NCBI GenBank assembly: GCA_003221005.1
Contig: QHTZ01000082.1
Coordinates: forward strand, 1-46,442
Length of the DNA stretch: 46,442 nucleotides
DNA from: Gemmatimonadota bacterium
GTDB lineage: Bacteria > Gemmatimonadota > Gemmatimonadetes > Gemmatimonadales > GWC2-71-9
Direction: 5' to 3'
In this document: in pieces, positions 20,334 through 46,170 of the stretch
Layout of the letters: each line of letters begins with the position of its first letter
How positions within the stretch are numbered: position 1 is the stretch's first letter
The notes under the pieces: generated by a model
What the model saw: only the letters and a program-made list of their open reading frames with translations
Database searches by the model: none
Told to the model about the DNA's origin: nothing
Position numbers and translations under genes: made by a program

Positions 20334-20557
20334 TTCCCCACACGGTTCCCACGTCTCCACAGCCGCGCGGTCCCGATCCTTGCGACAAAGTTGTCCACAG
20401 TGTCTGTGGATAGTGGAAAAACGATGGAATCACACCTGCGAGAACACTTTGTGATGTTGATAAGTGTGCAGATTTGCACCATTTACAAGTGGTTCCTATA
20501 TTGGCGCCGTTGAAATTTGGTCCGTTGGCGGGAGCATCCGGCCCGTCTCCATCCACA
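20334..20557 (+). promoter_or_regulatory. AT-richer leader with DnaA-box-like sites before the sigma factor gene
   Basis: The 275-base gap between aroB and the sigma gene is visibly lower in GC than its surroundings. It holds TTGTCCACA (20391-20399) and CTATCCACA on the other strand (20405-20413), each one mismatch from the DnaA box TTATCCACA; they form the perfect inverted repeat TCCACAG-TGT-CTGTGGA (20394-20410). Weaker matches lie at 20334-20342 (TTCCCCACA) and 20549-20557 (CCATCCACA). The pair could equally be the operator of another dimeric regulator. Confidence 0.4.
20466..20502 (+). promoter_or_regulatory. Candidate sigma-70 promoter for the sigma factor gene
   Basis: TTGCAC (20474-20479), a 17-base spacer and TATATT (20497-20502) form a reasonable -35/-10 pair about 90 bases before the ATG. 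The -35 overlaps one arm of the inverted repeat GTGCA-GATT-TGCAC (20466-20479), a possible operator. Confidence 0.45.
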
Positions 20558-20589
20558 ACGTGAGCCGTACACCTGTGGGAGTCCCTCGA

Positions 20590-21483
20590 ATGGCCCGGTC
20601 GAGTGGAGGCAAGCCCAAGGCGTTTTTTCGAGCCAATCCATCCGGAGCGTTCGACCAGTACCTGCAAGACATCCAGAAGCTGCCGCTGATCAAAGACCCG
20701 AATGAAGAGCGCCGCCTCGCGCGCCGGGTCCAGCGGGGCGACGAGAAGGCCGCCGAGCGGCTCGTCACCGCCAACCTCCGATTCGTCATCTCCTACGTCA
20801 AGAAGTACCAGGGGCACGGCCTCGACCTCTCCGAGCTGGTTGCTATCGGCAACGAGGGGTTGCTCAAGGCGGTGAAGAAGTTCGACCCCGACCAGGGCGT
20901 GAAATTCATCTCATACGCGGTATGGTGGGTGCGGCAGGCCGTCTTGAAGGCGCTCGCCGAGCAGACGCGCAGCGTCCGCATCCCTCTGAATCAGAACTCG
21001 CAGCTGATTCGCATGAGCCGCACCGAGACCTACCTGTCCCAGGAGTTGGGGCGCGAACCCACCGACAACGAGATCGCCCGAGCGCTCCAGGACACGGTAG
21101 AGAACGTGCGCACGGCGCGCCGCATGACGGCCGCCGAGCTGTCGCTCGATGCGCCGGTGGACCGCAGCGATCGCGATGCCGCCACGCTGGGCGAGCGGTT
21201 CGCCGGGCAGGAGGGCGGGGAGATCGAGGAGAAAACCGACGGCCGCCTGATGCGCGAGTTCATCGACCGCATCTTCCAGAAGTACCTGACGCCGCGCGAG
21301 CGCAAGATCCTGTACCTCTATTACGGCCTCGAGGAGGGGAGCGAGGCGATGACGCTCGAAAAGATCGGAGCGCTGATGGGCGTCACGCGGGAGCGGATCA
21401 GGCAAATACGGGAGCGGGCGTTCGAGAAGTTGCGCGAATCCCCAGACGGAAAGGCACTGAAAGGGTTCTGGAGAGCAGCGTGA
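20590..21483 (+). CDS. rpoD: Sigma-70 family RNA polymerase sigma factor (primary-like, short form)
   Basis: A 297-residue group 1/2 sigma factor with regions 1.2 to 4.2 but no region 1.1 and no long insert between 1.2 and 2.1. Region 1.2: FDQYLQDIQKLPLI. Region 2: TANLRFVISYVKKYQGHGLDLSELVAIGNEG split over 2.1-2.2, and KFDPDQGVKFISYAVWWVRQ for 2.3-2.4, which recognises the -10. Region 3: IPLNQNSQLIR. Region 4.2: TLEKIGALMGVTRERIRQIRE, binding the -35. The layout resembles the short primary sigma of Bacteroidetes, but a stationary-phase or other group 2 role cannot be excluded. ATG at 20590 has GGGAG about 8 bases upstream. A strong terminator follows. Confidence 0.93.
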   Translation: MARSSGGKPKAFFRANPSGAFDQYLQDIQKLPLIKDPNEERRLARRVQRGDEKAAERLVTANLRFVISYVKKYQGHGLDLSELVAIGNEGLLKAVKKFDPDQGVKFISYAVWWVRQAVLKALAEQTRSVRIPLNQNSQLIRMSRTETYLSQELGREPTDNEIARALQDTVENVRTARRMTAAELSLDAPVDRSDRDAATLGERFAGQEGGEIEEKTDGRLMREFIDRIFQKYLTPRERKILYLYYGLEEGSEAMTLEKIGALMGVTRERIRQIRERAFEKLRESPDGKALKGFWRAA

Positions 21484-21489
21484 CGAGCA

Positions 21490-21599
21490 GACGGGTAGAC
21501 GGGTAGACGGGTAGCGGTTGCTAGGACGAAGTGGTCAGGAGAGCCTTCTCCTGACCACTTTTTGCTGCTCACTCCTACCCGTCTACCCGTCTATCCGTC
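21490..21599 (+). repeat. Inverted pair of 8-bp tandem repeats around a terminator
   Basis: The left arm (21490-21514) is three copies of GACGGGTA plus one base; the right arm (21575-21599) is the reverse complement, matching at 24 of 25 positions. The arms begin 7 bases after the sigma factor stop and end 14 bases before the next start. They enclose the intrinsic terminator at 21529-21563. Confidence 0.9.
21529..21563 (+). terminator. Rho-independent terminator after the sigma factor gene
   Basis: A perfect 14-bp stem (AAGTGGTCAGGAGA paired with 21547-21560) with a four-base loop is followed by a T run. It separates the sigma gene from the Lon-N/glcDEF operon. Confidence 0.92.
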
Positions 21600-21612
21600 T
21601 ATACTATTTTCT

Positions 21613-22302
21613 ATGGCTCGCGAGTTGCCGATGTTTCCGCTGCCGATCGTCCTGTTCCCTGGCACTCCCCAGCCGCTTCATATCTTCGAGCCGCGCTACC
21701 GCCAACTGGTCGCCGATTGCCTCGCCGGCGACCGCCGCTTCGGCGTCGCCTACGTCGCCCCCAGGGACGAGCACGCGGGGGAGCCGGCGCCCAACGCCGG
21801 GGATGTCGGCTGCGTCGCGGTCATCCGGACGGCGCACGAGCTGCCCGATGGGCGCTCGAACATCCTCACGGAGGGCGAGCGCCGGTTCGTGCTGCTCGAC
21901 TGGTGCGCGAGCGAGCGCCTGTACCGGCGCGCGCGAGTGGAGGAGTTCGACGACGATCCCATCGACCCCGCTGCAGCGGGCACGCTGGCGGCGGACGTCC
22001 GGGCGGAGTGCGAGCGCTTGACCGCCGCCCTGAACACGCTGACCAGCCGCGACTTCGAGGAGCCGGCCGCGCTGCCTGCCGATCCGACCGCGCTCTCGTT
22101 TCGCGTGGCCGGTGCGCTCGAGCTCGAGCCCGAGGCGAAGCGGGCGTTGCAGGCCGGGCGGAGCACTACGGCGCGCCTGCGCCAGCTAGCGGCACTGCTC
22201 AAGCCGCTCGCGGAGGACGCCACGCGCCGCGCCGTCGTGCGGGAGCGCGCGAAGCGGAACGGCCGCGGCGGCGCCCACTCGGAGATCGAGCGCGCCTCGT
22301 GA
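21613..22302 (+). CDS. LON N-terminal substrate-binding domain protein
   Basis: A 229-residue stand-alone LON-N (ASCH/PUA-like) protein without the AAA+ or protease parts of Lon. The N-terminus is diagnostic: LPMFPLPIVLFPGTPQPLHIFEPRYRQLV split here as LPMFPLPIVLFPG and LHIFEPRYRQLV; then RRFGVAYV and ILTEGERRFVLL. Such proteins bind unfolded or specific protein segments, with no known catalysis. ATG at 21613 lies just after the repeat hairpin, with no clear ribosome-binding site. Its stop overlaps the glcD start (GTGA), making it the first gene of the glcDEF-ygfZ operon. Confidence 0.9.
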   Translation: MARELPMFPLPIVLFPGTPQPLHIFEPRYRQLVADCLAGDRRFGVAYVAPRDEHAGEPAPNAGDVGCVAVIRTAHELPDGRSNILTEGERRFVLLDWCASERLYRRARVEEFDDDPIDPAAAGTLAADVRAECERLTAALNTLTSRDFEEPAALPADPTALSFRVAGALELEPEAKRALQAGRSTTARLRQLAALLKPLAEDATRRAVVRERAKRNGRGGAHSEIERAS

Positions 22303-23822
22303 TCGACCACGCGCTGGTGGAGGCCCTGACGCAGATCGTCGGCGAGCGGCACGTGCGCACCGCCGGCGCGGAGCGCGCCACCTACGCGAAGGACGGTCTG
22401 ACCGTACACCGACGCCTCCCCGCGGTCGTGGTCCTCCCCGGCAGCCGGGACGAGGTGATCGCTGTCGTGCGTCTACTCGCCGTACACGGGGTGCCGTTCG
22501 TGCCCAGGGGCGCGGGCACCGGGCTCTCGGGCGGGGCGCTCGCCGACCAGGATGCCGTGCTCCTCGTGCTGACCCGGCTCAACCGCATCCTCAAGGTCGA
22601 TCCGCGGAACCGCGTCGCCACGGTCGAGCCGGGCGTCGTCAACGTCAAGCTCTCGGTGGCGGCCGCCCCGCATGGCCTGCTGTACGCTCCCGATCCATCG
22701 AGCCAGAGCGCCTGCACCATCGGCGGCAACGTGGCGGAAAACGCGGGTGGTCCCCATTGCCTCAAGTACGGCGTCACCGCGACCCACGTGCTCGCGCTCG
22801 AGGTCGTGCTGGCGGACGGGCAGGTGATACAGCTCGGGAGCCCCGGCGGCGAGGCCTGGGGGCCCGACCTCGTCGGCCTGTTCGTCGGATCCGAGGGCAA
22901 CTTCGGGGTCGCCACGCGGATCACCGTCCGCCTGCTCCCTGTGCCGCGCGCCGTGCGGACGCTGCTCGCCGACTTCCCGGCGCTGCGGACGGCGGGCGAG
23001 GCCGTCTCCGCGGTGATCGCGAGCGGCATCGTGCCCGCCGCGCTCGAAATGATGGATCACTCCTGCATCCAGGCCGTGGAAGATTCGGTGTACGCGGCGG
23101 GGTACCCGCGCGACGCCGCTGCCGTGCTGCTCGTCGAGCTCGACGGACGCGTCGACGATTCCGTCGCCGCGGACGCGGCCAGCGTCGAAGCCATTCTCAA
23201 GGACCACGGGGCGCGCTCGGTGCGGACCGCGGTGGACGCGCGCGAGCGGGAGCGGCTGTGGCAGGGCCGCAAGAAAGCGTTTGGCGCGATGGGTCGCCTG
23301 TCGCGCGACCTCGTCGTCCAAGACGCGGTGGTGCCGCGGTCGTCGCTCCCCGACGTGCTCGAGGCGATCGGTCGGATCGGCGAGCGCTACGGCCTGACCG
23401 TGAGTAACGTGTTCCACGCCGGGGACGGAAACCTGCACCCCAACATCTCGTTCGACGGCCGCATCCCCGGCCTGCGGGCGCGGGTGGATGCTGCGAGCGG
23501 TGAGATGATGGCCGCGTGCATCGTGGCGGGGGGCACCATCACCGGGGAGCACGGCATTGGGCTCGACAAGCTGCGCTACATGCCCCTCATCTTCGACGGC
23601 GACTCGCTCACCGCGATGCGCGGCGTGCGACGCGTCTTCGATCCCGCGGAGCGGGTCAACCCGGGGAAGGTGGTGCCCGTGCACGCGTGCCGGGAGTGGG
23701 CGGGAGTGCGGAATGCGGAGTTCCAAGCGCGGAACGCGGAAGTGGGAACGCGGAGCGCGTCGCGAGGAGACGGCGTGAGCAGTTCCGCGCTCCGCGTTCC
23801 GAGTTCCGCGGTGGGATCATGA
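22299..23822 (+). CDS. glcD: FAD-linked glycolate/D-lactate oxidase subunit (GlcD)
   Basis: A 507-residue flavoprotein of the VAO/PCMH family. FAD-binding PRGAGTGLSGGALA and GGNVAENAGGPHCLKYGVT lie in the N-terminal half; the C-terminal FAD-oxidase domain has NVFHAGDGNLHPN and TGEHGIGLDK. With GlcE and GlcF it oxidises glycolate or D-lactate and feeds the quinone pool. The start GTG overlaps the Lon-N stop; the stop overlaps the glcE ATG (23819-23822). From about residue 469 to the end (39 residues) the protein is encoded by the heptamer repeat pair at 23704-23809, giving an odd tail (GVRNAEFQARNAEVGTR) absent from normal GlcD. Confidence 0.92.
   Translation: MIDHALVEALTQIVGERHVRTAGAERATYAKDGLTVHRRLPAVVVLPGSRDEVIAVVRLLAVHGVPFVPRGAGTGLSGGALADQDAVLLVLTRLNRILKVDPRNRVATVEPGVVNVKLSVAAAPHGLLYAPDPSSQSACTIGGNVAENAGGPHCLKYGVTATHVLALEVVLADGQVIQLGSPGGEAWGPDLVGLFVGSEGNFGVATRITVRLLPVPRAVRTLLADFPALRTAGEAVSAVIASGIVPAALEMMDHSCIQAVEDSVYAAGYPRDAAAVLLVELDGRVDDSVAADAASVEAILKDHGARSVRTAVDARERERLWQGRKKAFGAMGRLSRDLVVQDAVVPRSSLPDVLEAIGRIGERYGLTVSNVFHAGDGNLHPNISFDGRIPGLRARVDAASGEMMAACIVAGGTITGEHGIGLDKLRYMPLIFDGDSLTAMRGVRRVFDPAERVNPGKVVPVHACREWAGVRNAEFQARNAEVGTRSASRGDGVSSSALRVPSSAVGS
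23704..23809 (+). repeat. Inverted pair of 7-bp tandem repeats in the glcD 3' end
   Basis: The left arm (23704-23759) is eight consecutive heptads of type GAACGCG (GAGTGCG, GAATGCG, GAGTTCC, AAGCGCG, GAACGCG, GAAGTGG, GAACGCG, GAGCGCG). The right arm (23782-23809) is four heptads of the reverse complement type GTTCCGC. The 23 bases at 23732-23754 recur exactly, inverted, at 33955-33977. Confidence 0.92.
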
Positions 23823-25042: not shown

Positions 25043-26324
25043 CGCCGTCGCGGAGGCGCGCGGCGGATTCGCAGCGCTCGACTCCTGCGTCCATTGCGGC
25101 TTCTGTCTCCAGGCGTGCCCCACGTTCCTCGCAACGGGCGACGAGGCCGACAGCCCGCGCGGCCGCATCGAGCTCATGCGTGCCCTCGAGCGCGGGGAGC
25201 TCACGGCCGACGACCCCTACGTGGTCGAGCACCTCGATCGCTGCCTCGGCTGTCGCGGCTGCGAGCCGGTGTGCCCCTCGGGCGTGGGCTACGGCCACGG
25301 CCTCGAAGCGGCGCGGGAGCTGATCGCGGCCGCGCGGCCCCTCCCCTGGCTCGCACGCGCGGCGCTCGCCGCCTTGACCACGCCCGGGCTCTCGGGGTTG
25401 GTGTACGCGCTCGCCCGTGCGCTGCGCGTCACGGGGATCCCGGGCTGGCTGGCGGGATGGGGGCGGGTGGGGTTTGCGATGGGAATGCTGGCGAGTACGG
25501 CGCCGACGGGCGGTAAGCGGCGGAATGGGGCGGTACGGGGCGGTAGGAGTCACGCCGCGCCGACCGCCTCTGACCGCCCGTTACCGCCCCTTACCGCCCT
25601 GCTGTTCCGCGGCTGCATCATGGACGGCCTCTTCTCCCATGTGCACGATGCCACGGTCCGCGCCCTCACGGTGAATGGCTACGAGGTCACGGATGTCCCC
25701 GGGCAGGTGTGCTGCGGGGCATTACACGTGCACGCGGGGCTGCGAGACGCCGCCCGGGCGTTGGCGCGCCGCAACCTCAGCGCGTTCGGTGAGGGGGACG
25801 AGCCGATCGTCGTCAACAGCGCCGGCTGCGGAGCGCTGCTGAAACAGTATGGAGACCTGCTCGACCTTACCCCCGCAGCGAGCGCTGGGGCAAGGTTCGC
25901 CGCCCGCGTCCGCGATGTCACAGAGCTCCTGGCCGCGCGCGGCCCAGTGCCGGGCGCACCGCTGGACACGCGGGTGGCGTACGATCCCCCCTGCCACCTG
26001 CTTCACGCCCAGCGCATCGCGGAGCCACCGCTCCAGATGTTCCGCGCCATTCCGGTGCTCCAGCTGGTCGCGACGCCGGACGCCGCGCAGTGTTGTGGCA
26101 GCGCCGGGTTGTTCACGCTGGTGCAGCCCGGCATGTCCCGCGCGGTGCTGGCGCCCAAGGTCGCGTCGCTGCGCGAGGCGGCCCCGCAGGTGGTCGCGAC
26201 CGGCAACCCCGGCTGCCTGATGCAGCTCGGTGCGGGACTGCGGGCGGCGCGCATCCCTGCGCGCACGCGACATCCGGTCGAGCTGCTCGACGACTCGTAT
26301 CGGGCGGCAGGCTACTATGCCTGA
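25032..26324 (+). CDS. glcF: Glycolate oxidase iron-sulfur subunit (GlcF)
   Basis: A 430-residue membrane-associated subunit passing electrons from the flavin subunits. Two 4Fe-4S sites are at the N-terminus: CVHCGFCLQACP and CLGCRGCEPVCP. Two CCG domains follow: QVCCGALHVHAG and QCCGSAGLF, with NSAGCGA and TGNPGCLMQ. Between the ferredoxin part and the first CCG domain, residues about 159-190 are encoded by an inverted pair of 10-bp repeats (GGKRRNGAVRGGR then DRPLPPLTAL), a foreign-looking linker in frame. GTG at 25032 is the nearest start, inside the glcE 3' end. The last 8 bases overlap ygfZ. Confidence 0.92.
   Translation: MPVDAVAEARGGFAALDSCVHCGFCLQACPTFLATGDEADSPRGRIELMRALERGELTADDPYVVEHLDRCLGCRGCEPVCPSGVGYGHGLEAARELIAAARPLPWLARAALAALTTPGLSGLVYALARALRVTGIPGWLAGWGRVGFAMGMLASTAPTGGKRRNGAVRGGRSHAAPTASDRPLPPLTALLFRGCIMDGLFSHVHDATVRALTVNGYEVTDVPGQVCCGALHVHAGLRDAARALARRNLSAFGEGDEPIVVNSAGCGALLKQYGDLLDLTPAASAGARFAARVRDVTELLAARGPVPGAPLDTRVAYDPPCHLLHAQRIAEPPLQMFRAIPVLQLVATPDAAQCCGSAGLFTLVQPGMSRAVLAPKVASLREAAPQVVATGNPGCLMQLGAGLRAARIPARTRHPVELLDDSYRAAGYYA
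25508..25600 (+). repeat. Inverted pair of 10-bp tandem repeats inside glcF
   Basis: The left arm (25508-25548) has four units close to GGCGGTAAGG; the right arm (25562-25600) has four units of the reverse complement (TTACCGCCCC). The reading frame passes through both arms. The same unit occurs at 18621-18650. Confidence 0.9.
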
Positions 26325-30789: not shown

Positions 30790-32271
30790 ATGACGAAAGC
30801 CACTACCCTTGGCGAATTGAAGCAGACGGAGTGGGCCAGCCCCGCACGCCTGCGTCGCACCGTGAAGGACGAGCTGCGCGACAACCTGGTCTGCCTGCTC
30901 GAGAACGGGTCACCCCTGTTCCCGGGCATCGTGGGCTACGAGGACACCGTCATCCCGCAGCTCGTGACCGCCGTCCTGTCGCGGCACAACTTCATCCTGC
31001 TCGGCCTGCGCGGGCAGGCGAAGAGCCGCATCCTCCGGGCGCTCGTGCTGCTGCTCGACGAGGAGATTCCCATCCTGGCGGGGAGCGAGGTCAACGACGA
31101 CCCGTTCCGCCCGATCTCGAAGTACGGCCGCGAGCTGCTGGCCGAGCGGGGCGACGAGGCGCCGATCGCGTGGCTGCCGCGCGATTCACGGTACGTCGAG
31201 AAGCTCGCGACCCCCGACGTGACGATCGCCGACATCATCGGCGACGTGGACCCGATCAAGGCGGCCCGGGGCGGGCACCTGCTGTCGGACGAGCTCACGA
31301 TGCACTTCGGCCTGCTGCCCCGGGCGAACCGCGGGGTGTTCGCCATCAACGAGCTGCCCGACCTCGCCGGCAAGATCCAGGTCGGCCTGTTCAACGTCAT
31401 GCAGGAGGGGGACGTCCAGATCAAAGGCTACCCCGTCCGCCTGAACCTCGACGTGGCGCTCGTGTTCACCGCCAACCCGGAGGACTACACCGCGCGCGGC
31501 AAGATCATCACGCCCTTGAAGGACCGCCTCGGCTCGGAGATCGTGACGCATTACCCCCACACGGTCGAGCTCGGCGCCACGATCACCCAGCAGGAAGCGT
31601 GGCTCGACCGGCACGGCCGGCCGGTGCGCGTGCCGGACTTCATCGCCGAGCTGGTCGAGCGTGTGGCGTTCGAGGCGCGGGAGGACAAGCGCGTCGACCG
31701 GCGCAGCGGGGTGTCGCAGCGCCTGCCGATCTCGCTGCTCGAAAACGTGGTGTCCAACGCCGAGCGGCGCGCCCTCCGCACGAAGGAGAAGGTGGTAGTC
31801 CCCCGCGTCTCGGACGTGTACGCCGCGCTCCCGGCGATCACCGGCAAGCTGGAGCTCGAGTACGAAGGCGAGCTCCAGGGGTCGGAGGTCATCGCCAAGG
31901 ATCTGATCCGGCGGGCGGCGGGGAAGACGTTCGAAGCGCGGGTCGGCGGGGCGAACGTCGACGACATCGTGCACTGGTTCGACGAGGGCGGCGCCCTCAA
32001 GATCTCCGTGGACGAGCGCGCCGAGACCTGCCTCAAGGGGTTCAGCGTAGTCCCGGGCCTGCTCGATCTCGTGGATCAGGTGGGACTCGCCGCGAAAAAG
32101 GATCCGCCCACCATGGTGTCCGCGTGCGAGCTGGTGCTCGAGGGGCTCGTCGCCGAGAAGCGCATCTCGCGGACCGAGGAGCTGGGGTACGTGCGGGTGC
32201 GCGCGGAGCCGAAAGGGCCCGGGTACGGGAAGACGGGCGGTGGAGGCACCGGGCCGAATCTGTTTTCTTGA
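30790..32271 (+). CDS. MoxR/ChlI-like AAA+ ATPase
   Basis: A 493-residue AAA+ ATPase. The Walker A loop is GLRGQAKS (72-79); Walker B is in [11 protein letters not shown]; the sensor region is [22 protein letters not shown]. The middle is like magnesium chelatase I subunits. MoxR-type ATPases work with VWA proteins as metal-insertion or maturation chaperones, and a VWA gene lies 3 kb downstream at 35240, so the two probably act together. ATG at 30790, 9 bases after the GH38-like gene. The stop codon overlaps the first repeat of the hairpin at 32270. Confidence 0.92.
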
Positions 32272-32323
32272 GACATCAGACGTCAGACGTCAGGGCTCTC
32301 TGATGTCTGACGTCTGACGTCTC
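32270..32323 (+). repeat. Inverted pair of 7-bp tandem repeats after the MoxR-like gene
   Basis: Each arm holds three heptads of GACGTCA/GACATCA. The left arm (32270-32293) starts inside the stop codon of the MoxR-like gene; the right arm is 32300-32323. The 24-base arms pair with two mismatches, which are G-U capable in RNA, around a 6-base loop. No T run follows. The same repeat word is used at 41764-41832. Confidence 0.92.
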
Positions 32324-32363
32324 AGGCAGTATCTTCTCCCACCGTCCCCCCTTCGGAGTCCCC

Positions 32364-36538: not shown

Positions 36539-36599
36539 CCCGCGCAACGCTCCCTCCCGGGCGTACGTATTCCCTCTCGATCCCGACCTCGCCCCCTGG

Positions 36600-36626
36600 C
36601 CCCCTCTCCGCGATGCGGAGAGGGGG
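36600..36626. repeat. Perfect REP-like palindrome
   Basis: CCCCCTCTCCGC, a 3-base loop GAT, and GCGGAGAGGGGG form a 12-bp hairpin in the 134-base gap between the VWA and Spy-like genes. No T run follows, so it is not a classic terminator. It differs from the heptamer arrays. Confidence 0.75.
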
Positions 36627-36672
36627 AACGAAGGTGCGGTCTGTCGCGGACCTTCACACGGAGGAAGCTCAG

Positions 36673-37156: not shown

Positions 37157-40100
37157 GTGAGCGAGTTCGTCTTCGGTACCCACAATGCGGCGTTCGTGCA
37201 GGTGATGTACGAGCAGTACCTGCGCGATCCGCAGTCGGTCGGGGAAGAGTGGCGTAACCTCTTTGACAACGGTCGGGTCGCCGACCTGCCGGTAATCCCG
37301 ACGAGCCGGGAAGAAGTGCTGCGGGACGAGGGACGAGGGACGAGGGACGGGTCGGTCGTCACCGAGCCCGGGACCACCCGTCCCCCGTCCCCCGTCCCAC
37401 CTCCCCAGGGCCTCACGCCGATAACCGGCCCCGCAGCTCGCCTCGCCCAAAACATGACGGACTCTCTGTCCGTCCCCACGGCGACGTCGTTCCGCGACAT
37501 CGCCGCAGACGTGCTCGACGCGCAGCGGCGGCTGCTGAACGGCGCCCTGGCTGCCCGCGGGCTCAAGATCTCCTACACGCACCTCATCGGCTACGCCCTC
37601 GTACAGGCGGCGCGCGGCTTCCCGGTGATGACCCACGCCTTCCAGGAAGTCGAGGGCAAGCCGCACCGCTTCGATCCGCAGGCGGTGCATCTCGGTCTCG
37701 CCGTGGACGTCGAGAAGAAGGACGGCAGCCGCGCGCTCGTCGTCCCCGTGATCAAGCACGCCGAAGGGATGGATTTCGCGCAATTCCGCGCGGCCTACGA
37801 GACCCTGGTCGAGAAGGCTCGCGCCAACAAGCTGCTCCCCGACGACTTCGCCGGCGCGACCATCACGCTCACCAACCCCGGCACCCTCGGCACTTTCGCG
37901 TCGGTGCCGCGCCTCATGAAGGGTCAGGGCTCGATCATCGCGACCGGTACGATCCGCCAGATCGGCCCCGCGAAGGTCATGACGCTCACGAGCACCTACG
38001 ACCACCGCATCATCCAGGGCGCGGAGTCGGGGATGTTCCTGCGCAGAGTCGAGGGGCTGCTGCAAGGGGAGGACGAGTTCTACGGCTCGATTCTGGAGAG
38101 CCTAGGGTTGCAGGGACGTGGGACGCGGGACGTGGGACGGGTGGCGACGGTAACAGCTCCACCGACCCCGTCCCCCGTCCCCCGTCCCTCGTCCCTCGAC
38201 GATCTCAAGCACGTAGCAGCAGCCATGGCGCTCGTGAAAGCGATCCGCCATTTCGGGCACATGGCGGCGCGGCTCGACCCGCTCGGCTCCGCGCCCCCCG
38301 GCGACCCGGCGCTCGATCCCGGTCCGCTCGGCCTGACGCCCGAAATCATGGCGCGGATCCCGGCGGAGATCCTGCGCATCTACGTGCCGGGGGTCACCCT
38401 CGCCGACGCGTATCCGGAGCTGTTGCGCACCTACTGCGGCACGATCTCTTACGAGGTCGAGCACATCGGCAGCCACCAGGAGCGCCTCTGGTTGCGCCAC
38501 GTGATCGAGTCGGGGGAGCACCGCACGCCGCTCACGCCGGACGAGCGGCGCGAGTTGCTTGCGCGGCTGACGGCGGTGGAAACGCTCGAGCGCTTCCTGC
38601 ACCGTACCTATCTCGGGCAGAAGCGTTTTTCGATCGAGGGACTCGACATCCTCGTGCCGATGCTCGACCTCACGATCGAGCTCGCGGGCGCGGGCGGCGC
38701 CCGTCGCGTCGTGCTCGGCATGGCGCACCGCGGGCGCCTCAACGTGCTCGCCCACGTGGTAGGGCTCCCCTACGAGACGATCTTCGCCGAGTTCGAGGGA
38801 GGTAGGCACGTGGAAGAGACCCTCACCCCCGAGGGCGGCACCGGCGACGTGAAGTACCACCACGGCGCGGACGGAGTGTACCAGACGGCCGATGGCAAGC
38901 CGGTCAACGTCACCCTGTCGCCGAACCCGAGCCATCTGGAGGCGGTGAATCCGGTGGTCGAGGGCCGGGCCCGCGCCAACCAGACGAACCGCCGCGGCAA
39001 GGAGGCGTTCTCCGATGCCTCAGTCGCCCTCCCCGTGCTGATCCACGGCGACGCCTCGTTCGCGGCACAGGGCGTCGTGGCGGAGACGTTCAACCTCGCG
39101 CGGCTCAAGGGCTACACTACGGGCGGTACGATCCATCTCATCGCGAACAATCAGCTCGGCTTCACGACCGACGCCAAGCAGGCGCGCTCGACCGACTACG
39201 CGAGCGATCTCGCGAAGGGGTTCGACGTTCCCATCATCCATGTGAACGCGGACGATCCCGAGGCGTGCCTCGCGGCGGTGCGCCTGGCGCTCCGGTACCG
39301 GGCGGAGTTCAAGGGCGACGTGGTGATCGACGTCGTGGGGTACCGCCGCTACGGCCACAACGAGGGGGACGAGCCGGCGTACACGCAGCCGCTCATGTAC
39401 GAGAGGATCAAGGAGACGCCGACCGTGCGGCAGCGCTACGCCGAGCAGCTCGTCGCCGCCGGCGTGGTGGACGCGGCGCAGGTCGAGGCAGAGCCCCAGC
39501 AGTTCTACCAGCGGCTGAGCGAGATCCAGCAGTCCCTCAAGGCCCATCTCTCCGAGGACACGAAGGGCGAAGAGCCGCAGCGCATCTCGGGTGTGCAGCA
39601 GCTGGTCTCGGAGCCGGACACGCGGACGGCGCCGCAGCTCCTCACCAGCCTGAACCAGCAGCTGCTCGCGGTGCCCGACGGATTCACCGTGAACCCCAAG
39701 CTCCAGAGGCAGCTCGAGCGCCGGCGTGAGGCATTGACGCAGGGCGAGATCGACTGGGCGCACGCCGAGGCGCTGGCGTTCGCGTCGCTGTTGCAGGAGG
39801 GGATCTCGATCCGCCTCACCGGACAGGACACCGAGCGCGGCACCTTCAGCCAGCGCCACCTCGTGCTGCACGACATCCGCACCGGTCAGGGCTACGCGCC
39901 GATGCAGAACCTCGCCGGCGCGCGCGCGCCGTTCGAGCTGTACAACAGTCCGCTGTCCGAGTTCGCATGCCTCGGCTTCGAGTACGGGTACGCGGTGGCG
40001 GCGCCCGACGCGCTAGTGTTGTGGGAGGCGCAGTACGGCGATTTCACCAACGAAGCCGAAGTGATCATCGACCAGTTCCTCATCGCCGGGCTCGCGAAAT

Positions 40101-41615: not shown

Positions 41616-41764
41616 GACTTCTCAAGACGCTCGTCAACCTCGTCGTCGCGACCCTCGTCGGTGCGCTCGGCGACAAGCTGTTCGGCGCATGGGGCATGGT
41701 GCTCGGCTTCATCGCGGGCGGCCTCGCCGCCTGGTGGGTGGCGCGGCGAATGTTCGACAGCTAG
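41612..41764 (+). CDS. Small glycine-rich membrane protein, 50 residues
   Basis: Starts GTG overlapping the DUF167 stop. The protein VRLLKTLVNLVVATLVGALG continues with a second hydrophobic segment, GMVLGFIAGGLAAWWVARR, giving two short membrane helices with glycine spacing and positively charged ends. No family is recognised. The translational coupling and clean membrane pattern support a real gene. Its TAG stop (41762-41764) touches the first repeat of the array that follows. Confidence 0.68.
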   Translation: MRLLKTLVNLVVATLVGALGDKLFGAWGMVLGFIAGGLAAWWVARRMFDS

Positions 41765-41832
41765 ACGTCAGACATCAGACGTCAGACGTCAGAGGCGGGC
41801 CTGCTGATGTCTGAAGTCTGATGTCTGACGTC
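41764..41832 (+). repeat. Inverted pair of 7-bp tandem repeats at the cydB end
   Basis: Left arm: GACGTCA, GACATCA, GACGTCA, GACGTCA (41764-41791). Right arm: TGATGTC, TGAAGTC, TGATGTC, TGACGTC (41805-41832), with a fifth degraded unit to 41839. The 29-base arms pair with two mismatches. It lies between convergent genes: the stop of the small membrane protein touches the left arm and the cydB stop (41782-41784) is inside it. Confidence 0.93.
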
Positions 41833-42837
41833 CGATGTTCTCTTGAACACTCGAAACAACAAATACAGCGACGGGAACAGCACGATCGCGCCGAGCACCA
41901 GTGCGCCGAGGGCGAGGCGCAGCGTGGCGTCGGGGGCGGCGACGTCGGCGATCGCGAGGTCGGGTGGGAGGATGTCGGGGTACTGGCTGAGCGGCCACCC
42001 CCAGAAGATCAGCGTCACCTGGCCCGCGGCGGCGATGCGGGCGATGCGATAGTGCCGCCGCGATAACGCGCCGAGCGCCGTGACCGCGGCGACGCCGGTG
42101 AGGAGATGCAGCGGCAGGGCCCAGGGCGCAAAGACCAGGTCATCCAGGAGGCTGGGAGCGCCGCCGCGCGCGAGGAGCAGCACTGCGACGGCCGCGAAGA
42201 ACAGCGCCACTCCGGCGCCGAGCGCCCGGCGGCGGAAGTCCTCCCGCAGCGGCTGGTCCTCCGTTTCGAGCGTCAGATAGACGGCCGCGAGAAACGCGAA
42301 CGCCACGAGCGCAAACACCCCGACCGAGAGCGCAAACGGCGCGAGCCACGGCGCGACGTAGATGGAGTAGAACCCGTCCCCCGTCCCTCGTCCCCCGTCC
42401 CCGATCGCGCCCGACGCGATCGCTCCTACGGCGGTCCCGAGCAGCAGCGGCGTGATGAGGCTCGCGCTCGCGAACAGTCGCCCCCACCGGCGCTGCACCG
42501 CGTCGCGCTGCCCGCCGTAGCTACGAAACGCGAACGCGGAACCGCGCAGCACGATCCCGATCAGCACCAGCGAGAACGGGATGTGCAGCCGGATACCGAG
42601 CTCGGCGAATGCCGCCGGAAAGCAGGTGAACAGCAGGACGATCGCGAGGATGAGCCAGACGTGGTTCGCCTCCCACACGGGACCGATCGCGTGCGCGACG
42701 AGCTCGCGTTGCTGTGTCTTACGCGGACCGCTCGCGAGCAGGTCCCAAACGCCGCCGCCGAAATCTGCGCCCGCGAGCAATACGTAGGCGTTTAGCGCTA
42801 CGACGATGATGCCGGCGAGCAGGTCGGCGAGCGTCAC
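41782..42837 (-). CDS. cydB: Cytochrome bd oxidase subunit II
   Basis: A 351-residue membrane protein with about eight helices. The N-terminus is characteristic: LADLLAGIIVVALNAYVLLAGADFGGGVWDLL contains the AGADFGGGVWDLL segment, then GPVWEANHVWLI. It partners CydA in quinol oxidation by oxygen. GTG start overlaps the cydA stop (42834-42837). Two repeat-derived parts are present: an internal loop GDGGRGTGDG from the array at 42373-42400, and a C-terminal tail of about 18 residues (TSDVRHQTSDISRPASDV) from the array at 41764-41832. Confidence 0.93.
   Translation of the reverse strand: MTLADLLAGIIVVALNAYVLLAGADFGGGVWDLLASGPRKTQQRELVAHAIGPVWEANHVWLILAIVLLFTCFPAAFAELGIRLHIPFSLVLIGIVLRGSAFAFRSYGGQRDAVQRRWGRLFASASLITPLLLGTAVGAIASGAIGDGGRGTGDGFYSIYVAPWLAPFALSVGVFALVAFAFLAAVYLTLETEDQPLREDFRRRALGAGVALFFAAVAVLLLARGGAPSLLDDLVFAPWALPLHLLTGVAAVTALGALSRRHYRIARIAAAGQVTLIFWGWPLSQYPDILPPDLAIADVAAPDATLRLALGALVLGAIVLFPSLYLLFRVFKRTSDVRHQTSDISRPASDV
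42373..42400 (-). repeat. Single-arm 7-bp tandem repeat inside cydB
   Basis: Four heptads CCCGTCC, CCCGTCC, CTCGTCC, CCCGTCC on the (+) strand, so the coding strand is G-rich GGGACGR, the same word as in kgd. No second arm is nearby. It encodes a Gly/Asp-rich loop between two membrane helices. Confidence 0.9.
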
Positions 42838-44135
42838 CCGTCCCCCGCGTGCGTCACGAACGTCCACACCTCCTCCGGCACCTTCGGACTGCGCACGATG
42901 TGACGATAGAGGAGCCACGCCACGATCACGCCGAGAAAACAGTACAGCAGCGTGAATACGACGAGCGGCACCATGAGCCCGGGCATCGGCGTCACCGCAT
43001 CCCGCGTCCGCAGTACGCCATAGATCGCCCACGGCTGGCGCCCCAGCTCCGTCGCGATCCACCCGGCCTCGGTCGCGATGAACCCCATGGGTGTAGCGAG
43101 CGCGACCGCGCGCATGAGCCACCGATGCTCGGCCAGGGCTTCACGTCTCTCGTTTCCCGTTTCCCGCTTCCCGGTCTTGATCGCAACCCATCCTGCCCAA
43201 AGCGCCACGCCCGCCATGTAGCTCCCCAGTGCGACCATCAACTGAAACGACCAGTGCACCGCGGGGACGTTCGGCCAGTCCTCGCGCGGCACGGCGTCCA
43301 GTCCCTTCACGACGGCGTTCGGGTCGTGGAAGGCGAGCAGCGAGAGGCCGTAGGGGATCCGGATCGCGTAGCGCGTCACCCGCGCCTCTACGTCGGGCCA
43401 GCCGCCGAGCACGAGTGGCGCGCCGGCCTCGGTGTGGAACACCGCCTCCATCGCGGCGAGCTTGGCGGGCTGATTGCGCGCCACCTGGCGGGCCGCGAAA
43501 TCGCCCGCGAGCGGCTGCAGCACGGCGGCCGGCCCGCCCACGAGCAGCGCGATCGTCAGGGCGCGGCGGTGGAAGGCGTTGGTCGGATCTTTCAGCAGCA
43601 GGAATGCGTGGATGCCGGCGACGGCGAACCCCGTGGCCGCATACGCCGCGAGCGTCATATGAATCGTCTGTGACAGCGCCGCGGGGTTCAGCATGGCGGC
43701 GATGGGGTCCACCTGCACCACCGCGCCGCGTACCAGCGTGAACCCCGCCGGGGTGTTCATCCACGCATTCGCGATCACGACGAAGATCCCCGACGCCGCC
43801 CCGCTCACCGCCACGAGCAGCCCGGCCGCGAGGTGGGCGCGGGGGCGGATGCGCTCCCAGCCGTACAGGTAAATGCCGAGGAAGATCGCCCCGGGCCACA
43901 AGAGCCCCAGCTCGAACGACAGCACCGTCCCGGACACCGCACCCACGGCGAACAGGATCGCCGTTCCCTTGGCCCAGCGCTGTGCCAGCTCGAGGTAGAT
44001 CTCGTCTCGCGTGATGAGCCAGCGCCGCTCCGCCACGACCATGAGCAGCGGCATCCCGATCCCGACGAGCGCGAAGATGATGTGGAACGCGAGGGAGATT
44101 CCCATCTGCGAGCGAGCGGCGAGGAGGTCGGACAT
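42834..44135 (-). CDS. cydA: Cytochrome bd oxidase subunit I (short Q-loop)
   Basis: A 433-residue subunit, clearly shorter than E. coli CydA (about 520), with a short quinol-binding loop (QPAKLAAMEAVFHTEAGAPL). His18 in LAFHIIF and Met300 in SFQLMVALG are the expected heme ligands; ELGRQPWAIYGVLRT is the conserved late motif. Short Q-loop enzymes include the cyanide-insensitive type. The loop after the helix near residue 312 contains repeat-encoded GKRETGNERRE from the heptamers at 43152-43172. It is first in the cydAB operon, divergent from the methyltransferase gene. Confidence 0.93.
   Translation of the reverse strand: MSDLLAARSQMGISLAFHIIFALVGIGMPLLMVVAERRWLITRDEIYLELAQRWAKGTAILFAVGAVSGTVLSFELGLLWPGAIFLGIYLYGWERIRPRAHLAAGLLVAVSGAASGIFVVIANAWMNTPAGFTLVRGAVVQVDPIAAMLNPAALSQTIHMTLAAYAATGFAVAGIHAFLLLKDPTNAFHRRALTIALLVGGPAAVLQPLAGDFAARQVARNQPAKLAAMEAVFHTEAGAPLVLGGWPDVEARVTRYAIRIPYGLSLLAFHDPNAVVKGLDAVPREDWPNVPAVHWSFQLMVALGSYMAGVALWAGWVAIKTGKRETGNERREALAEHRWLMRAVALATPMGFIATEAGWIATELGRQPWAIYGVLRTRDAVTPMPGLMVPLVVFTLLYCFLGVIVAWLLYRHIVRSPKVPEEVWTFVTHAGDG
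43152..43172 (-). repeat. Single-arm 7-bp tandem repeat inside cydA
   Basis: Three heptads GTTTCCC, GTTTCCC, GCTTCCC on the (+) strand; the coding strand reads GGGAAAC. The same word forms the array at 44310-44337, 1.1 kb away in the opposite orientation. Confidence 0.85.
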
Positions 44136-44309
44136 GGGCTACAACATAAAGGCGTGGTGCGCGCCTTTCAGTCCTTGCATCGGATCGCTAAGTTATAGAC
44201 CGACATCGGTTCTCCGTGGCGATTTGCGGCGTATTGCGGCCACGTAAAACAATCCGCTAAAAGGCCGGCCCGTTGCGGCTTTCTGCGCTGTGACGGGATT
44301 TCGTTTTGT
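44136..44309. other. Divergent intergenic region between cydA and the methyltransferase gene
   Basis: About 170 bases carrying both promoters. TATAAC on the (-) strand at 44192-44197 could be a -10 for cydAB, but no good -35 is placed for it. Two copies of TTGCGGC lie 10 bases apart near 44226-44242. I see no SAM or cobalamin riboswitch signature. Confidence 0.35.
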
Positions 44310-44337
44310 GGGAAACGGGAAAGGGGAAACGGGAAAG
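44310..44337 (+). repeat. 7-bp tandem repeat directly before the methyltransferase start
   Basis: Four heptads GGGAAAC, GGGAAAG, GGGAAAC, GGGAAAG end exactly at the GTG chosen as start. They occupy the ribosome-binding site position, or, if translation begins at the GTG at 44290, encode an N-terminal GNGKGETGK. Confidence 0.9.
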
Positions 44338-46170
44338 GTGCCGACGCTCCGCCAGCTTCTCGACGACGGCAAGGTGCACGTCCTCGACGGAGCCATGGGC
44401 ACGATGCTGTACTCGAAGGGCTTCTTCCTGAACGTCTGTTACGACGAGCTAAACCTGAAGCAGCCGAAGCTCGTCCAGGAAGTGCACGAGGCGTACGTGC
44501 GCGCCGGCGCCGAGATCCTCGAGACGAACACGTTCGGGGCGAATCCCGCGAAGCTCGCGAGCTACGGTCTCGCGGCGGAGACCGAGCGGATCAACCAGGC
44601 GGCGGCCGAGCTCGCCCGTAAGGCGGCGGCGGGCCGGGCCAGCGTCGTCGGCGCGATCGGGCCGTTGGGGCTGCGCATCGAGCCGTTCGGCCCGACCTCG
44701 CGCGAAGAGGCGTTCGCCTTCTTCCAGCGCCAGGCGAAGGGTCTCCTCGCAGGCGGCGTGGACGGATTCATCCTCGAGACGTTCTCCGACGTGGACGAGC
44801 TGCACGAGGGGCTGCGCGCGGTGCGCAGCCTGTCGGATCTTCCCGTCATCGCACAGATGACGATCGGCGACGACGGCCTCACCCATTACGGCACCGCTCC
44901 CGAGATCTTTACGAAACAGCTCGCCGAGTGGGGGGCGGATGTCATCGGGGTAAACTGTTCTGTGGGACCGGCGGGCGTGCTCGAGGCGGTCGAGAAGATG
45001 GTCAAGGTCACCGACCGCCCGATCTCCGCCGTGCCGAACGCAGGGCTGCCGAAGGACGTCGGCGACCGGAAGATTTACCTCGCTTCCCCCGAGTACATGG
45101 CGAGCTACGCGCGCCGCATGATCGAGGCGGGGGCGCGCATCGTGGGCGGGTGTTGCGGGACGACGCCCGAGCACATCAAGAAGATCCGCGACTACGTGGC
45201 GAGCGTGGTGCCGCGCCATCAGCCGGTGGTCGTATCGCGCGATGTGGTGGCCGCTCCCGCTGGCGTCGAGGCGGTGCCGCTCGCCGAGCGCTCGCGCTTC
45301 GGTACCAAGCTCGCGCGGCGCGAGCTCGTGACGAGCGTCGAGATCGTCCCGCCCAAGGGAGTGGATCCCGCGCCCATGTTCGCGCAGTGCCGGGCGCTCA
45401 AGGCGGCGGGGGTGGACGCCGTGAACGTCCCCGACGGGCCGCGGGCCCAGAGCCGCATGGGAGCCCTGCTGTCGTCGGTCATCATCGAGCGGGAGGTGGG
45501 GATCGAGACGGTCACGCACTACTCGTGTCGCGACCGGAATCTCCTCGGCATGCTCTCCGACGTGCTCGGCGCCTCGGCCGCGGGGCTGCGCAACATCCTC
45601 ATCATCACGGGCGATCCGCCGAAGATGGGGCCGTATCCGGACGCGACCGCCGTATTCGACATTGACGCGATCGGGCTCACGAACCTCGTCTACCGCCTCA
45701 ACCACGGGCTCGACCCCGGGGGGAATCCGATCGGCAAGCCGACACAATTCGCGATCGGCGTGGGGGTGAATCCCGCCGCGACCGATCTCGACCGCGAGCT
45801 GTCGCGCTTCGCCTGGAAGGTGGACGCGGGCGCCGACTTCGCGGTCACGCAGCCGGTGTTCGACATCGCGCAGCTCGAGAGCTTCCTCAATCGTGTGGAG
45901 CAGTTCCACATCCCGATCGTGGCGGGGATCTGGCCGCTCTTGTCACTCAGGAACGCCGAGTTCCTCGCGAACGAGGTGCCAGGCGTCTCCGTCCCCGATA
46001 CGGTGCTCGCGCGGATGCGGAAGGCGAGCGACGGTGGCAAGGATTCAGCGCTCGCCGAGGGTGTGAAGATCGCGCGCGAGATGTTCGCCCTCGTGAAACG
46101 GGATGTGCAGGGGATCCAGGTGAGCGCGCCGTTCGGGAAGGTGGAGGTGGCGCTGGAGGTGTTCAAGTAG
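44338..46170 (+). CDS. Bifunctional homocysteine S-methyltransferase / 5,10-methylenetetrahydrofolate reductase
   Basis: A 610-residue fusion. Residues 1-300 are the zinc-dependent homocysteine methyltransferase (HVLDGAMGTMLY, ETNTFGANP, zinc cysteines in IGVNCSVGP and VGGCCGTTPEH). Residues about 325-610 are the FAD-dependent MetF barrel (TSVEIVPPKGVD, THYSCRDRN, NILIITGDPPK, DFAVTQPVFD). It lacks the cobalamin-binding and activation modules of MetH, so another methyl donor such as S-methylmethionine, or a separate corrinoid protein, is needed. GTG at 44338 fits the family's N-terminus; in-frame GTGs at 44290 and 44308 would add repeat-coded residues. The TAG stop lies in the next gene's Shine-Dalgarno site. 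Confidence 0.92.
   Translation: MPTLRQLLDDGKVHVLDGAMGTMLYSKGFFLNVCYDELNLKQPKLVQEVHEAYVRAGAEILETNTFGANPAKLASYGLAAETERINQAAAELARKAAAGRASVVGAIGPLGLRIEPFGPTSREEAFAFFQRQAKGLLAGGVDGFILETFSDVDELHEGLRAVRSLSDLPVIAQMTIGDDGLTHYGTAPEIFTKQLAEWGADVIGVNCSVGPAGVLEAVEKMVKVTDRPISAVPNAGLPKDVGDRKIYLASPEYMASYARRMIEAGARIVGGCCGTTPEHIKKIRDYVASVVPRHQPVVVSRDVVAAPAGVEAVPLAERSRFGTKLARRELVTSVEIVPPKGVDPAPMFAQCRALKAAGVDAVNVPDGPRAQSRMGALLSSVIIEREVGIETVTHYSCRDRNLLGMLSDVLGASAAGLRNILIITGDPPKMGPYPDATAVFDIDAIGLTNLVYRLNHGLDPGGNPIGKPTQFAIGVGVNPAATDLDRELSRFAWKVDAGADFAVTQPVFDIAQLESFLNRVEQFHIPIVAGIWPLLSLRNAEFLANEVPGVSVPDTVLARMRKASDGGKDSALAEGVKIAREMFALVKRDVQGIQVSAPFGKVEVALEVFK

Follow-up and report, generated by a model that had tools for sequence, protein, structure and literature searches.

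We found that the predicted intrinsic terminator of a sigma-70 (RpoD/SigA-like) gene in a Gemmatimonadota bacterium is bracketed by two convergent arrays of a short tandem repeat, and that the terminator stem and the arms enclosing it appear to have had different histories, the inner stem evolving as a transcribed structure and the outer arms not. The arms are members of a group-specific family of paired convergent arrays with 7-, 8- and 10-nt units, G-rich on the 5′ side and C-rich on the 3′ side, which settles in freely varying DNA, that is, in intergenic gaps and protein linkers. The explanation to which we give slightly better than even credence is a joint one: an ordinary terminator, a group-specific array family whose members would be replaced as whole pairs, and arms that would act at the level of DNA. 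The DNA analysed, hereafter the window, is a stretch of 46,442 nt (contig QHTZ01000082.1) from a genome of 2,793,158 bases in 141 contigs. The closest named relatives of this genome are Gemmatimonadetes MAGs, for the most part isolates whose contig names give a depth in cm and isolates from groundwater.

Together, the arms and the hairpin occupy the whole gap between the stop codon of the sigma-70 gene (21483) and the start of the next gene (21613; Table 1). The arms are 25 nt long, built of GACGGGTA units, and flank the inner hairpin on both sides, their alignment giving 25 matches and one G-T. This agrees with the preliminary description of this DNA, which had reported a 14-bp terminator with a T run inside 25-nt repeat arms. 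The strands of the inner stem are AAGTGGTCAGGAGA (21529–21542) and TCTCCTGACCACTT (21547–21560); three of the five T's lie beyond the 14-bp stem and the other two are paired within it, and the 21529–21563 hairpin was not among the calls of a consensus terminator scan, which requires five T's downstream of the stem. The inner hairpin is most probably an ordinary intrinsic terminator serving the sigma-factor gene. The ATG of the downstream Lon-domain gene lies 8 nt past the TATACT box, at which a promoter scan found no −35/−10 pair, and TATACTAT or a related box is repeated in the rpoD-region orthologues inspected. The minimum free energy predicted for the RNA from 21484 to 21604 is −87.4 kcal/mol, compared with −38.9 ± 4.1 kcal/mol for shuffled sequence (z −11.9), and none of 200 dinucleotide shuffles folded as well. 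Thus, the RNA structure prediction that had been suggested as a check bears out a stable two-tier fold filling the gap.

Table 1. Features of the sigma-factor locus and other paired arrays, in window coordinates.
Feature	Position	Strand	Basis or location
Sigma-70 (RpoD/SigA-like) gene	20464..21483	+	Pfam Sigma70_r1_2, r2, r3, r4; ORF; stop codon 21481–21483
Left (G-rich) arm, AGACGGGT x3.2	21489..21514	+	Tandem Repeats Finder; inverted repeat I1/I14
Inner 14-bp stem, loop GCCT, predicted intrinsic terminator hairpin of sigma gene	21529..21560	+	Sequence; fold; G-U over A-C in orthologues
Five-T run, two T's also stem-paired	21559..21563	+	Sequence
Right (C-rich) arm, CTACCCGT x3.4, downstream of T run	21575..21601	+	Tandem Repeats Finder; inverted repeat; fold
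TATACT, −10-like box of next gene, overlaps right-arm end	21600..21605	+	Sequence; orthologues
Lon substrate-binding-domain protein gene	21613..22302	+	Pfam LON_substr_bdg; start from gene calling
Paired 7-nt arrays, GGAACGC type	23728..23810	+	3′ end of FAD-linked oxidase gene; inverted repeat I10
Paired 10-nt arrays, GGGCGGTANN	25508..25599	+	In gene, between Fer4 and CCG domains; I2
Paired 7-nt arrays, AGACGTC	32269..32324	+	3′ end of gene 30790–32271 and gap; I11
Paired 7-nt arrays, GGGACGN	37323..37405	+	Linker 1, 2-oxoglutarate dehydrogenase gene
Paired 7-nt arrays, GGGACGN	38113..38198	+	Linker 2, 2-oxoglutarate dehydrogenase gene
Paired 7-nt arrays, AGACGTC/AGACATC	41763..41838	+	3′ end of cydB-like gene; I4

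We compared 80 distinct rpoD 3′ regions, consisting of 79 named loci and the window; an 80th named locus was of insufficient length. T-tailed stems stand behind rpoD in both groups, with 27 distinct stems from the 28 close-group regions and 36 from the 52 others (identical inner stems were counted once, and the stem picked for L026 falls within its arms). An arm score of at least 15, which 2.1% of shuffles reach, was obtained in 21 of the 28 close-group regions versus 10 of the 52 others. Thus, terminators are general behind rpoD, and the arms are chiefly a close-group trait, in line with the earlier proposal that the arrays appeared around a pre-existing terminator. In the more distant Gemmatimonadaceae genome of L059, a large ACACAGAG-like palindrome lies directly after the terminator, not around it, ~60–165 nt past the rpoD stop.

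The mismatches of the two stems also differ. Across the 63 stems behind rpoD, inner-stem mismatches are predominantly of the G-U type (39, versus 10 A-C), whereas the outer arms of 22 rpoD loci carry 37 G-U and 43 A-C mismatches (Fisher p 2e-4 against the inner stems). The presence of stems in both groups and the 39:10 ratio indicate that the inner stem is conserved as RNA behind rpoD. When the 95 array pairs of every context are taken together, the ones that can be oriented by transcription yield 58 G-U and 86 A-C mismatches, and genic array pairs yield 23 versus 46 (binomial p 0.008). Furthermore, the right arm lies downstream of the T run and is therefore absent from the terminated RNA. Because the arm mismatches are not RNA-like and the right arm lies past the T run, we favor arms that would act, if at all, on DNA, and not through a stem formed in the rpoD transcript.

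Selection for RNA structure, in which a long two-tier hairpin would boost termination or shield the 3′ end of the rpoD mRNA, could account for the very stable fold. However, it is at odds with the position of the right arm, with the absence of a G-U bias in the outer arms as compared with the stem inside them, and with the many arrays located mid-gene, and we consider it highly improbable. Specifically, the mismatch types of the arms and the location of the right arm past the T run led us to reject a functional role for the two-tier RNA hairpin; the preliminary description was correct on the fold itself, and its reading as RNA is weak. The rpoD locus thus splits an RNA-selected terminator stem from an enclosing stem that does not appear to evolve as RNA, which is a caution for those who take long covarying stems as functional RNA.

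A second array-bracketed terminator lies in the same genome (contig 4), on the 3′ side of a gene that we assigned by eye as probable rpsA, since it has an S1-repeat-like sequence and follows a cytidylate-kinase-like gene. Here, a near-identical stem stands between GACGCCGA arms. The preliminary description had reasoned that its idea would fall if no other array in the genome were centered on a hairpin, and had called for a search for further terminator-centered arrays; the rpsA locus supplies such a case, although most arrays in the genome lie off terminators (loops judged by eye) and many are intragenic. In relatives, rpsA has this layout as well, with arm scores of 18 (G000), 24 (G019), 26 (G010), 30 (G015) and 14 (G011), and only one of the 25 other rpsA loci scores at least 15. 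The exact terminator stem pattern has a single match in the own genome, and a looser search, filtered for T's and for a stem, recovered only the rpoD and rpsA sites in the sampled own sequence; on these results we rejected the idea that this stem is a repeat scattered widely through the genome. By eye, the rpsA terminator-array element (L005 / L121:15832-15975) is nearer to the rpoD elements of L013 and L018 than to its own rpoD element.

The arrays are a genome-wide kind. With a paired-array detector that overlooks imperfect pairs, such as window 23728–23810 and rpsA, we identified 24 inverted pairs and no direct pair over 596,556 bases sampled from the own genome, 48 inverted pairs and one direct pair in all eight genome samples, and 53 inverted pairs and one direct pair in the 80 named loci (1.25 Mb). 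The relatives' samples contain seven pairs in 140,000 bases (G015), 10 in 126,765 (G031), four in 178,418 (G025) and three in 97,088 (G010). No pairs were detected in 120,000 bases sampled from G027, a member of the close group, or in 80,000 and 60,000 bases from the more distant relatives G020 and G043. Dinucleotide-shuffled controls (one shuffle each) yielded no pairs in either 356,557 bases of own-genome sequence or 1,252,192 bases from relatives, and we rejected a chance origin on this basis.

Among 95 distinct pairs, the period is 7 in 56, 8 in 26, 10 in 11 and 9 in two, and the inter-arm gap spans 4–85 nt; 86 pairs have a G-rich left arm, six a C-rich one and three a neutral one. By the classes of a simple gene caller trained on the own genome, 38 pairs are genic, 16 lie at gene ends and 41 are intergenic. 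Several unrelated unit types and periods occur within one genome; several units have no GGG run, and G-quadruplex formation was accordingly rejected as a general rule. Of ten genic arrays whose host proteins were searched with Pfam, eight fall in a tail or in a stretch separating domain matches (2-oxoglutarate dehydrogenase twice, the Fer4/CCG protein, NAD synthase, YidC, a TrpE-like protein, an AAA protein and DnaG); the array in MnmE is ambiguous and that in asparaginase lies inside the domain. The arrays reveal how much repeat-driven change conserved proteins tolerate in their linkers.

Additional repeats were noted along the way. Single 7-nt tandem arrays with no close inverted partner lie at 42373–42402 (within the cydB-like gene), 43144–43173 (within a cydA-like gene) and 44310–44336 of the window; the TTCCCGT unit at 43.1 kb is complementary to the GGGAAAC unit at 44.3 kb, yet the two are 1.1 kb apart. 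A SAM_alpha riboswitch (44206–44280; 52.5 bits versus a gathering score of 36) precedes the ORF at 44290 and the GGGAAAC array at 44310–44338. At 36585–36641, a non-tandem inverted repeat with 27-nt arms, 74% complementary and separated by 3 nt, overlaps the start of the ORF at 36613. Similarly, L126:12486-12987 contains two GACGGGTA array pairs at most 500 bases apart, near putative tRNA genes.

At fixed sites, the arrays turn over. The unit, and even the period, differs between species at rpoD, rpsA, the 2-oxoglutarate dehydrogenase gene and the Fer4/CCG gene, and both arms switch together. The rpoD unit is GACGGGTA, GACGCACA, GACGCTGA, GACGGCTA or another, depending on the species, and the mean match of an arm to its own partner is 13.0, versus 7.4 across species (57 regions, with kinship kept in and armless regions counted). 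Among 20 of 30 loci of the 2-oxoglutarate dehydrogenase gene, the linker units are GGGACGN, CGGGAGN, GGGAAGN, GGGATGN and so on by genome, with complementary arms in each; linkers 1 and 2 have a common unit in G000, G015 and G025, and both change together between genomes. In the Fer4/CCG gene, one and the same linker is occupied by paired arrays in 16 of the 23 close-group rows, the period being 10 in eight, 8 in three and 7 in five; no array was detected in the remaining seven, and only three of 30 other rows have one. Conservation of position across many species could also mean selection for the paired structure.

The units also have genome-specific distributions. In three of four genomes (G010, G015 and G019), the rpoD and rpsA elements are each other's best match, the rpsA stretch in this comparison including 60 nt of the gene end; in the exception, G000, the rpoD element scores 50 against the rpsA element of G015 and 38 against its own. 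Three tandem copies of GCGGATT occur 27 times in G015, 32 times in G025 and not in G000, and three copies of GCGGAAT occur six times in G000, 13 times in G019 and nine times in G025. Each pattern is present in seven of 61 genomes, the reversed control patterns being absent throughout, and GACGGGTAGACGGGTAGACGG is present in four of 61. Identical 7-nt units were shared by 11 of 115 locus pairs within genomes versus 12 of 381 between genomes (31 of 2000 label shuffles were as high); 8-nt units gave no significant within-genome excess of identity (535 of 2000 shuffles as high).

Such observations bear on how the arrays arise. The preliminary description proposed growth around an existing hairpin, perhaps by template switching at the palindrome; in a local origin of this kind, slippage and template switching at the terminator palindrome would grow both arms in place. 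Older terminators are indeed enclosed by arrays at rpoD and rpsA, the unit is common to both arms locally, each arm of L023 contains far more units than its L020 counterpart, and template-switch mutations are known, from the available text of one report (PMC8794818), to create stems or restore them. Template switching would explain the match of the arms and predicts copies in register. However, when the unit order was permuted in 50 testable array pairs, in-register sharing of variants gave Z 0.2–0.4 for the real arms, compared with 12–15 for simulated full copying and 4–7 for copying in a quarter of the arrays, so that copying of one arm onto the other is unsupported; the arms appear to have a common core and not to be copies of each other. 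Units common to unlinked loci and the switches among periods 7, 8 and 10 at one site also speak against local origin. Later unequal slippage in each arm could mask an old copying event; even so, we regard this origin as quite unlikely.

We instead favor whole-pair replacement, because the dialects are common to two loci, the units turn over at fixed sites and variants are not shared in register. The whole array pair would be replaced or homogenized from other copies in the same genome, through ectopic copying or mobilization, and not by copying one arm onto the other in place. Against the joint explanation that includes this step stand the facts that neither a copying event nor an enzyme came to light in the analysis, that 8-nt units have no significant dialect, and that G000 has mismatched rpoD and rpsA elements and the G027 sample has no pairs.

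The main rival to whole-pair replacement is recognition of the core: the unit core would be the binding motif of a putative DNA-binding or nucleoid protein, and paired arrays would be selected as its loading sites, as has been suggested for the paired repeats of Geobacter metallireducens. Within-unit variation clusters at one position (235 versus 154 expected, Z 14.9, in 78 arrays), a pattern that simple homogenization does not predict and that hints at core recognition, and the polarity is fixed and the arrangement is also found in other phyla. Yet a binding site does not readily fit several unrelated unit types and periods in one genome, or near relatives that differ in unit at the same site, and we hold this rival to be unlikely. 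A further reading, which we put forward tentatively and judge rather unlikely, is that the paired arrays are self-dispersing palindromic DNA with genome-specific "dialects," the current unit overwriting whole pairs at fixed sites such as terminators and linkers, driven by a putative core-recognizing copying machinery. If so, unit and period would change while position and mirror symmetry persist.

Another rival is that Y1/RAYT-type transposases would mobilize the array pairs as REP-like hairpins. The seven genomes that bear the GCGGAAT array all encode Y1_Tnp, as do 20 of the remaining 54; however, this genome-level association is confounded by relatedness, no paired array lies within ~1.5 kb of any of 14 Y1_Tnp loci from the array-bearing genomes, and the periodic array, with no fixed REP stem, differs from the REP plan. 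In other genomes, one of six Y1_Tnp loci (L248, G006) has a paired array ~1 kb off. With an association at the genome level yet no physical link, we rejected RAYT mobilization and consider this route very unlikely. Loss of SbcCD as the reason for palindrome survival proved uninformative: SbcD-type matches with E <= 0.001 are present in 41 of 41 genomes, two of which exceed the curated cut-off.

We found no description of such arrays in Gemmatimonadota in the open-access papers searched. Rickettsial palindromic elements are palindromic repeats tolerated within protein-coding genes, as are the arrays here, but each of their families has one fixed sequence and is not known to contain a short tandem unit. 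REPs, described as 20–40-bp palindromes with a GTAG or CGTC foot (PMC3733652), and REPINs with their RAYT transposases resemble the present arrays, as far as the available accounts go, in being dispersed short palindromes of genome-specific families that form extragenic hairpins (PMC3733652, PMC3116915). The Gemmatimonadota elements are, unlike these, tandem arrays, and at none of the 14 loci do they flank a RAYT (Y1_Tnp) gene.

Closer parallels are found among short tandem repeats. In Geobacter metallireducens, the available part of the published account describes "global regulator sites" and GGGACCG elements with three to five tandem units of 7 or 8 nt, mostly in opposite-strand pairs at variable distance, for which the global regulator IHF/HU was suggested as a guess (PMC2700814). 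The pairs studied here share the opposite-strand layout, unit length and variable spacing, and the G. metallireducens units TCTCCGTS and MTYCTGA look, by eye, like complements of units found here; between-species turnover, unlike in Gemmatimonadota, is not part of that account as available (PMC2700814). In Xanthomonas and Nostoc, the portion of the report at hand describes tandem, genome-dispersed heptamers, GGGAATC / GGGGA(C/T)T (GGGANTN), frequently arranged as two neighboring convergent arrays (70 cases in Xcc and 75 in Xac). Most occupy sites shared with relatives, in which length and sequence differ, and each genome has one type, 89–93% intergenic and interpreted as G-quadruplexes (PMC4692102). 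The Gemmatimonadota arrays likewise have a short, G-rich, dispersed tandem unit with loose positions and form convergent pairs with the G-rich arm first (86 of 95; 48 inverted and one direct). They differ from the Xanthomonas heptamers, as characterized there (GGGAATC, four GGG runs, ~90% intergenic), in having several types and periods of 7, 8 and 10, units such as GACGCACA and AGACGTC with no GGG run, and 38 of 95 pairs in genes and 16 at gene ends.

To conclude, the arrangement is, so far as the available accounts allow comparison, of the same kind as the paired short repeats of Xanthomonas, Nostoc and Geobacter metallireducens, which have been known for years and remain unexplained there, with no established function. 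To these, our analysis adds the coexistence of periods, arrays in protein linkers, the turnover of both arms at fixed sites and a terminator that contrasts with the arms bracketing it. Conserved genes in which arrays turn over at a fixed site offer a clean test bed for the origin and spread of paired short repeats.
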